Part shown: positions 2,838-3,892 of the stretch, in pieces
Numbering within the stretch: position 1 is the stretch's first letter
Layout: the number at the start of each line of letters is the position of its first letter
Source: Gemmatimonadota bacterium
GTDB lineage: Bacteria; Gemmatimonadota; Gemmatimonadetes; Longimicrobiales; Gaopeijiaceae
NCBI GenBank assembly: GCA_022827345.1
Contig: JAJDTB010000006.1
Location: 1-64,000 of the forward strand
Direction of reading: 5' to 3'
DNA length: 64,000 nt
Position numbers and translations under genes: made by a program
The notes under the pieces: generated by a model
What the model was told of the DNA's origin: nothing
What the model saw: only the letters and a program-made list of their open reading frames with translations
The model's database searches: none

Positions 2838-2882
2838 AAGCCCCCGCAGATACAGGGTGGGACCCTGGACCTGCGGGGGCTT
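2838..2882. terminator. Compound hairpin, likely bidirectional terminator
   Basis: A perfect 12-bp stem (2838-2849 with 2871-2882, arm AAGCCCCCGCAG) encloses a second 6-bp stem (CAGGGT/ACCCTG, loop GGG). It lies 72 nt after the + strand amidohydrolase and about 65 nt after the - strand micro-ORF at 2948-3010, so it could end transcription from both sides. The T tracts on both sides are poor, so this is inferred from position and stability only. Confidence 0.6.
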
Positions 2883-2947
2883 GCTTCAACCTGCCGCAAC
2901 CCGGCGCGAAGACCGCTTACGGCGCGAAGGTTTGGATCGTGTTCGGC

Positions 2948-3010
2948 TTAGTTGCCGAAGCGGCGATCGCTTGCCCTTGCCGGGTTGGGCTGGGTACTGG
3001 GACTAGACAA
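2948..3010 (-). CDS. Candidate 20-residue micro-ORF with a near-ideal ribosome binding site
   Basis: A TTG start at 3010 lies 7 nt after AGGAGG. The surrounding sequence (3013-3025, minus strand AAAGGAGGTGATC) is a 13-nt perfect complement to the 3' tail of 16S rRNA. The ORF runs 20 codons to TAA and encodes a polar, Ser/Pro/Arg-rich peptide ending RRFGN, with no membrane segment or recognised family. A weak promoter-like pair lies upstream and a strong hairpin lies downstream, so this could be an independent small gene or the tail of the M50 transcript. Coding function is inferred from the ribosome binding site alone. Confidence 0.4.
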   Translation of the reverse strand: MSSPSTQPNPARASDRRFGN

Positions 3011-3121
3011 GAGATCACCTCCTTTTTTTGGGTTGGACATCGGGCGGGACACCAAGTCCAGCTCGAAACCGTCCGCCACTCATGGCTTCCGGGTATGGAC
3101 CCGCATGAGGGTCGACTCCAA

Positions 3122-3149
3122 TGTATACAGGACGGGGTGTGCGGAGCAA
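3122..3149 (-). promoter_or_regulatory. Weak sigma70-like promoter for the micro-ORF
   Basis: On the minus strand TTGCTC (3149-3144) is followed after 16 nt by TATACA (3127-3122), about 110 nt upstream of the micro-ORF start. The -35 match is partial. The rest of 2766-3205, a 440-nt stretch with no long gene, shows nothing else recognisable. Confidence 0.25.
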
Positions 3150-3205: not shown

Positions 3206-3892
3206 TCAAGCCGCCTTGTACGCCCTCCGGAACGCCAGCGCGCTCACCACCACTGCCACCGCGATCCAGATCACCCCCCAGGTCATCGTCGGCACCCCCG
3301 TCAGATCCGCCAGCATGGCCGCGTCGGATTCGAGGTGGGGCCGGTCGAGCACGTCGCTCTTGATGTCGAGGATCGCGTACAGGCAGCTCGTCAGCCCCAG
3401 CGCCGTCAGCAGCACCCGGCTGACTCCGGCGCCGAGCTTGCGGCCCGCGATCATGAGCACCGCGCCGAACGCCAGGCCGAAGGCGAGGCCGAAGCCGTTG
3501 CGTACATAGAGCGCCGTGAGGACGACCACCAGCAGGCCCACCACAAAGACCAGCGCCTGATTGGGAATGCGGCGCACCCCCGTGGCCGCGAGGAGCACCA
3601 CGCCCCACAGCAGGCTCCCCAGATAGCCGGCCGACAGCGTGATGAACGCGTTGCCGCCCCCGCAGTAGCACGCTCCGCCCTGGTAGGGATCGAGGACGAT
3701 GCGCTCGATCGTGCCGCCCGTGGCGAGCGACGCGATCCCGTGGCTGATCTCGTGGAGCATGACCACGAAGATCTTCAGCGGATAGATGGCGGGCGTGTTC
3801 CAGAGGAGCCACAGCGCGACGAAATAGAGAGAGAACCCCGCGAGGAAGGTGAGCTTCCGCTTCGCGGTGGATGCTTGCATGTCTTCAGCCAT
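3206..3892 (-). CDS. M50-family membrane metallopeptidase-like protein
   Basis: The product has 228 residues and about six hydrophobic segments. The HExxH zinc motif His47-Glu-Ile-Ser-His51 lies in an early membrane segment (VMLHEISHGIA), as in M50B-like site-2-protease relatives. A Cys-rich CYCGGGN loop follows near residue 74. The family cleaves or processes substrates within the membrane, but many short M50B-like members have no known target. The short MAEDMQAS leader is polar and lacks a signal peptide. The gene stands alone, transcribed away from the TlpA-like gene at 4041. The 3' flank contains the micro-ORF at 2948. Confidence 0.75.
   Translation of the reverse strand: MAEDMQASTAKRKLTFLAGFSLYFVALWLLWNTPAIYPLKIFVVMLHEISHGIASLATGGTIERIVLDPYQGGACYCGGGNAFITLSAGYLGSLLWGVVLLAATGVRRIPNQALVFVVGLLVVVLTALYVRNGFGLAFGLAFGAVLMIAGRKLGAGVSRVLLTALGLTSCLYAILDIKSDVLDRPHLESDAAMLADLTGVPTMTWGVIWIAVAVVVSALAFRRAYKAA

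Follow-up and report, generated by a model that had tools for sequence, protein, structure and literature searches.

The closest described counterparts of the element analyzed here are the alphaproteobacterial mini-mRNAs rreB and rreR, reportedly characterized by Hahn et al. in 2017. These transcripts are said to be recognized by at least 16 nt of complementarity to the 3′ end of the 16S rRNA and to encode peptides of 14 aa (rreB) and 18 aa (rreR) from a non-AUG start codon. The rreB mRNA reportedly cosediments with the 30S subunit; its Shine-Dalgarno (SD) sequence and GTG codon are said to impede translation, and removal of the start codon to stabilize the RNA. A second counterpart, CC2171 ("caulobacter sRNA"; RF01867), is filed in Rfam as a noncoding sRNA. 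Its consensus contains GAAAGGAGGUGAUCCAGUGUCUCAU and reads as a GTG start codon with a perfect SD, followed by an in-frame stop after 22 codons; CC2171 may thus itself be an mRNA. Schrader et al. (2014; PMC4117421), in passages that do not name them, describe two earlier Caulobacter ncRNAs as translated.

Here, we examined a locus of this architecture in a genome of the Gemmatimonadota, within a 64,000-nucleotide stretch of DNA (the window). The original prediction had described a 13-nt perfect anti-SD match placed 7 nt ahead of a TTG that opens 20 codons, with a compound hairpin behind it. This observation is correct, and it understates the find. The host's own 16S rRNA ends in ...GGCTGGATCACCTCCTTTCT, and all 13 nt of AAAGGAGGTGATC are thus a perfect match to the anti-SD; on the minus strand, 7 nt separate GGAGG from TTG. 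The hairpin is likewise real, since a 306-nt region folds 5.2 standard deviations below its shuffles and its stems covary. SD, TTG, and micro-ORF appear to sit at the heart of an RNA gene that stands alone, with its own putative promoter and terminator (Table 1).

Table 1. Features of the element and its upstream neighbor, in window coordinates
Feature	Coordinates	Strand	Details
Peptidase_M50B-like gene (context, outside the element)	3206..3892	-	Pfam PF13398, E 7e-45
Promoter-like site	3122..3149	-	-35 TTGCTC 3149-3144, -10 TATACA 3127-3122, 16-nt spacer
Leader box GCCCGATGT	3037..3045	-	Its GCCC is a potential partner of the ORF's GGGC (frame nt ∼35-38)
Extended SD AAAGGAGGTGATC	3013..3025	-	13 of 13 nt complementary to the host's 16S rRNA 3′ tail
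Micro-ORF MSSPSTQPNPARASDRRFGN	2948..3010	-	TTG start 3010-3008, 20 codons, TAA 2950-2948
Stem 1	2897..2987	-	Arms 2987-2979 (inside ORF) and 2905-2897 (past stop)
Stem 2, within stem 1	2906..2970	-	5′ arm in ORF, 3′ arm past stop
Intrinsic terminator hairpin, then weak T tract	2838..2882	-	21-nt arms, 90% complementary; stem covaries in family

Searches by blastn with a 236-nt query recovered the element in 47 of the 58 genomes of the host's family, almost always once per genome; the loss of both peptide and ribosome binding site from close relatives, named in the original prediction as a refutation, is therefore not what these genomes reveal. We aligned 46 copies, leaving out one cut by a contig end (L047) and one weak unrelated match (L050). 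They share the leader box GCCCGATG, the SD, the TTG, the short frame, two stems, and the terminator. Their contiguous SD match to the 16S tail spans 9 to 16 nt, most commonly 14. Conservation does not end with GGAGG but continues across the GATC, which is complementary to the base of the tail (at alignment positions G39 to G45 and C48 it is complete, at A46 and T47 almost so). As the sequences share ancestry, counts over them do not represent independent events.

The consensus structure of this alignment is paired in 96.1% of its cells, with changes on both sides in 20 of 25 pairs. Cells with such changes numbered 137, versus 34 in column shuffles and 11 to 25 when the 3′ arms were slid by 1 to 3 columns. 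Both-side changes occur in 6 of the 8 pairs of stem 1 (98% of cells paired) and in 5 of the 8 of stem 2 (94%), and the 5′ arms of these two nonterminator stems are made of ORF codons ∼9 to 18. The leader GCCC and the ORF GGGC are paired in 99.5% of cells over the 46 sequences, with a single both-side change; being almost invariant, this contact is hardly probed by covariation. Among 32 distinct loci of other families, 22 carry both boxes, 7 neither, and 3 are discordant, which is suggestive, in a tally whose "neither" set comprises only about three lineages and from which one further locus was dropped as too short. Located between the arms of the stems, the two boxes could form a pseudoknot closing over the SD and start codon. 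Folding gave no signal for SD accessibility (mean unpaired, 0.29 versus 0.25 with shuffled flanks). The SD is thus predicted to be neither more open nor more closed than with shuffled flanks, which leaves its gating by structure unsupported by folding.

RNAalifold returned no ORF stem (0 pairs) for the pooled alphaproteobacterial MSH-type copies (n = 46) and no pair between the frame and the sequence past the stop in Nitrospinota, and a fold shared across phyla is therefore not shown. ORF stems were found in the Rhodobacterales (13 sequences) and Bradyrhizobium (9 sequences) subgroups and in the Gemmatimonadota groups f4 and f5 (13 and 9 sequences). In the Rhodobacterales group (L137 and others), a CACCTCC ahead of the terminator is predicted to pair with the SD in the consensus fold of 13 sequences, as is a CACCTC inside the ORF in Bradyrhizobium (L103 and L111). 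RNAs of both types are thus predicted to carry their own anti-SD. Separately, the ORF region of L132 and L160 has a CCTCC complementary to the SD, and these two loci and L249 have GGAGGTC in a 3′ arm, such that two SD-like strands may compete for one partner.

A covariance model (R1) covering only sequence downstream of the start codon, and hence neither SD nor start, was built from 38 sequences, with 8 of the 46 left out. It recovered 7 of 7 held-out family loci searched (all E < 1e-12) and, in register, 27 of 36 Gemmatimonadota loci from other families (E < 1e-3); three of these loci had been entered twice, and the distinct count is 24 of 33. The exact pattern GGAGGTGATC-N0-3-TTGTCT occurs in at least 112 of 298 Gemmatimonadota genomes (reversed control, 0), and is absent from 9 of 9 sampled genomes of family f3, in the same order, and from 6 of 6 of f9, outside the class. 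One genome (G250) has two matches with different spacers. A subgroup of five loci (L203 to L207) has an 11-codon frame, MSTESRVACGC/R (MSTESGVACGC in one); it has lost both boxes, the leader GCCC and the GGGC at its normal position within the ORF, and R1 finds none of the five in register.

Loci of the same apparent design are present in Alphaproteobacteria, Nitrospinota, and Neomarinimicrobiota. Scanning of a genome collection (84,980 species, as stated) with AGGAGGTGATCNNKTGTCT yielded at least 120 matches, and the 80 loci listed are mostly from Alphaproteobacteria, with some from Gemmatimonadota and single ones from Nitrospinota and Neomarinimicrobiota. The pattern was then counted in 27 of 77 genomes of the phylum of the Nitrospinota record, in 4 of 120 of that of the Neomarinimicrobiota record, and in 15 of 190 of the alphaproteobacterial class sample, each with a reversed control of 0. 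Two of the 16 alphaproteobacterial matches look unrelated (one is a 56-codon gene, the other a 12-codon frame lacking the A-rich SD). Twenty of the 27 Nitrospinota loci were read; all of these have TTG frames of 14 to 15 codons (MSSHSIKGASG-like), and in most of them a terminator hairpin and T tract, judged by eye, come soon after the frame. The alphaproteobacterial scan returned 14-aa peptides in Bradyrhizobium (MSFTKRCHLAGIAR) and 18-aa peptides in Rhodobacterales-type loci, presumably in agreement with rreB and rreR. Over 79 mostly alphaproteobacterial loci, with Nitrospinota and Neomarinimicrobiota, R1 gave one in-register match, L117 (E 0.027), possibly the only alphaproteobacterial copy that it finds, which does not establish a shared ancestry with the RNA of Alphaproteobacteria. 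We found no earlier report on the element in Gemmatimonadota, Nitrospinota, or Neomarinimicrobiota in the open-licence PMC literature.

In Rhodobacterales-type loci, a gene with a GPGGQNVNK motif lies just downstream of the mini-mRNA. It was seen in 10 of 96 loci of a mixed, mostly alphaproteobacterial set (L137, L120, L138, L091, L081, L242, L087, L121, L094, and L084; L242 and L087 are in the same genome), and we take it to encode an ArfB-type ribosome rescue factor. Another gene, presumably EamA-like, intervenes in L081 and L091.

What is kept throughout these sets is a short frame. The family copies were found regardless of any ORF; each of the 46 has the TTG and a frame that closes at 14 to 23 codons, after exactly 20 codons in 35 (stops are TAA in 21, TAG in 14, and TGA in 11). 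Copies that lost the stop at codon 21 by indel or substitution use another in-frame stop, resulting in 16, 17, 19, 14, or 23 codons. In the pattern-found sets, the pattern fixes the start and second codon but does not select ORF length. The first in-frame stop falls at codon 11 to 31 in 30 of 30 Gemmatimonadota loci (shuffled mean, 10.4), 20 of 20 from Nitrospinota (8.9), 13 of 16 of the alphaproteobacterial sample (5.6), and 4 of 4 from Neomarinimicrobiota (1.8). The same holds for 76 of the 80 genome-scan loci listed (28.9), a count that keeps two long frames (L104 and L110) and a locus adjoining tRNA genes (L131). The other two frames of the pattern-found sets lack this early-stop pattern.

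Selection for the peptide was looked for at the codon level. Among the family copies, entropies at codon positions 1, 2, and 3 are 0.41, 0.62, and 0.50, i.e., position 2 is the most variable, with 4 of 46 rows with indels left out. Other frames outscored frame 0 for substitutions, as high a score was reached by 114 of 300 column permutations, and the home-made coding test used is of low power for frames of about 20 codons, in which folding constraint can also hide codon bias. Nitrospinota are the exception, with codon position 3 the most variable. In the family, ORF closure is thus kept where no codon signature was detected. Selection seems to act on short translation and not on the peptide, for whose sequence these comparisons reveal no role. 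Of the small protein gene proposed in the original prediction, the conserved short ORF stands (46 of 46 copies), whereas amino acid-level selection was not detected.

We put at about even chances the reading that the locus is a stand-alone small RNA gene that is also a minimal mRNA and acts as a ribosome-gated switch, with the peptide secondary. What is seen in the sequence is a maximal SD, a non-AUG start, a frame closed after about 11 to 26 codons, overlapping stems, and a terminator. The 16S 3′ tail would dock on the extended SD and hold a 30S subunit, and the weak UUG start would make entry slow. Upon successful initiation, the ribosome would traverse the stem-building stretch, open the stems, and stop near the apex of the fold; upon failed initiation, the RNA would stay folded, with or without a parked 30S subunit. 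The state of the RNA, and by analogy with the reported behavior of rreB also its stability, would report ribosome availability, and the RNA most likely acts in trans on 30S supply or serves to read it out. More tentatively, and with doubt prevailing, such RNAs might constitute a widespread, so far unrecognized ribosome-gated class across Gemmatimonadota, Alphaproteobacteria, Nitrospinota, and Neomarinimicrobiota. Through an SD matching the 16S tail and an obligatory short non-AUG ORF, their fold and fate would directly read free 30S subunits or initiation capacity, the ORF being a timer and the peptide irrelevant.

The first competing explanation is a genuine small-protein gene, whose product would be the 20-aa peptide MSSPSxLSSLARASDRRxGx, with the strong SD compensating for the weak UUG. 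The peptide is alike across the family, with start and stop kept everywhere. A Staphylococcus aureus study (PMC13009471) describes extended start-proximal SD pairing that exists on the ribosome and goes with weak start codons, a point that serves this explanation as well as the ribosome-gated switch. However, the family copies gave no codon position bias or frame-specific substitution score, the peptides of the other phyla are wholly different, and the stems largely explain the conservation of the ORF. NCBIfam has no match for the peptide either, although 20 aa are hard for any profile. We therefore regard a small-protein gene as unlikely.

Uniqueness of the SD bears on a second explanation, in which the RNA would engage the entire 16S tail as an anti-SD decoy and park or protect 30S subunits, the ORF being incidental. 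The 13-mer occurs in the 4.79-Mb genome at only two places, the micro-ORF and the antisense of the 16S 3′ end, and once in the window, where up to 2 mismatches give 2 matches versus 0.81 expected. The 11-mer AGGAGGTGATC occurs at 10 places genome-wide, i.e., the 16S antisense, the micro-ORF, and 8 others at which the arrangement of SD and short ORF is absent. One of these is followed 9 nt downstream by a GTG with a 6-codon frame, one has a GTG in a 290-codon open frame, and six lack a start codon close by; we read them as probably gene internal. This uniqueness and the conservation through GATC fit a 30S trap, but an incidental ORF would keep neither the TTG in every family copy nor a stop at codon 11 to 31 in the genome-scan and similar sets, and a single gene per genome might not suffice for ribosome titration. 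A pure trap is unlikely; the ribosome-sequestering RNA suggested in the original prediction would be compatible with these sequences.

The surroundings of the element bear on a third explanation, a transcription attenuator or leader peptide for a neighbor gene, or a terminated leader now acting in trans. Transcription is predicted to start near position 3115 from the promoter-like site. Over the 45 of 46 family loci with enough upstream DNA, a promoter consensus scan gave a mean best score of 7.5 out of 12 versus 6.7 for shuffled sequence, and the best -35 lies at -164 to -150 of the TTG in 24 loci (at -139 in the window), a modest support. A strict terminator scan (hairpin plus T tract) was positive in 35 of 46 family copies versus 3 of 46 shuffled ones, although it missed the window's own long hairpin, which is evident; on the antisense strand of the element it gave terminator-like matches in 12 of 46. 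The original prediction had pointed to M50 and amidohydrolase genes as neighbors. The former part holds, with an M50B-type protease gene preceding the element in the same orientation in 34 of 46 family loci; the latter does not, an amidohydrolase gene being within reach in 3 of 46 only, and a leader of this gene was rejected on that count. Its further suggestion of a translational leader finds no support, as a terminator follows and the next gene in the window, the amidohydrolase gene, is convergent. Stems that overlap an ORF and precede a terminator do resemble attenuators, and the ArfB-like gene follows 10 of the 96 loci of the mixed set. Against this, the element has its own promoter-like site, the following gene varies, and an M50 gene was near the element in 0 of 36 other-family Gemmatimonadota loci and 0 of 20 Nitrospinota loci. 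No constant downstream gene was found among the family loci, and hence none of the conserved, co-oriented kind expected of an attenuator, which we consider improbable. Finally, strong SDs do occur and random frames often close within 30 codons (see the shuffled means), but an ordinary strong ribosome site or chance is already refuted by family-wide conservation, covariation, and the controls, and retains next to no probability.

Small ORFs are usually asked about their peptide, whereas the comparison made here points to the act of translation. Real surprise lies in the taxonomic breadth and in the hint that conservation may concern translation instead of the peptide. The gene is single copy in nearly all carrier genomes, and automatic annotation would miss its 20 codons. 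A single architecture brings the Rfam "noncoding" CC2171 and the orphan mRNAs rreB/rreR together with loci from three further phyla, and this system opens a test of whether a maximal SD senses or holds 30S subunits.

No Rfam family matches the element at gathering score. The tmRNA (RF00023), also an RNA with a short frame, was rejected because a separate tmRNA lies on another contig (157.8 bits), none reaches gathering in the window, and the element has an SD; the sRNA UpsM/mraZ leader was rejected because the downstream genes are not mraZ. The attenuator leader peptides trpL and peTrpL share a short ORF overlapping stems and a following terminator, but the window element differs from them in its maximal SD and in lacking a regulated downstream gene and a regulatory codon run. 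In CC2171, SD and short non-AUG frame likewise precede stems and terminator; matches to its model are full-length but weak (21.2 bits in the window and 39.8 bits at best elsewhere in Gemmatimonadota), and the gathering score of 75 bits is reached in 0 of 150 genomes of the phylum. The rreB/rreR mRNAs are likewise stand-alone mini-mRNAs with a near-complete complement to the 16S 3′ tail, a non-AUG start, and a terminator, and a stand-alone transcript with its own promoter and terminator is also what the window element looks like, judged by sequence only. They differ in belonging to another phylum, in starting with GTG instead of TTG, and in unrelated peptides and different stems. Their ORFs have about 14 to 18 codons, that of the window element 20. 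Their SD match is of 16 to 17 nt, versus 13 nt in the window; 16 nt are attained in 2 of 46 family copies, and at least 17 nt in 48 of the 68 loci from Alphaproteobacteria, as scored against the host's 16S tail. As the 16-nt mark and the CC2171 cutoff lie above the window's values and common descent is unproven, we do not file the element as a member of either group, but it appears to work like rreB/rreR and like CC2171 read as an mRNA.
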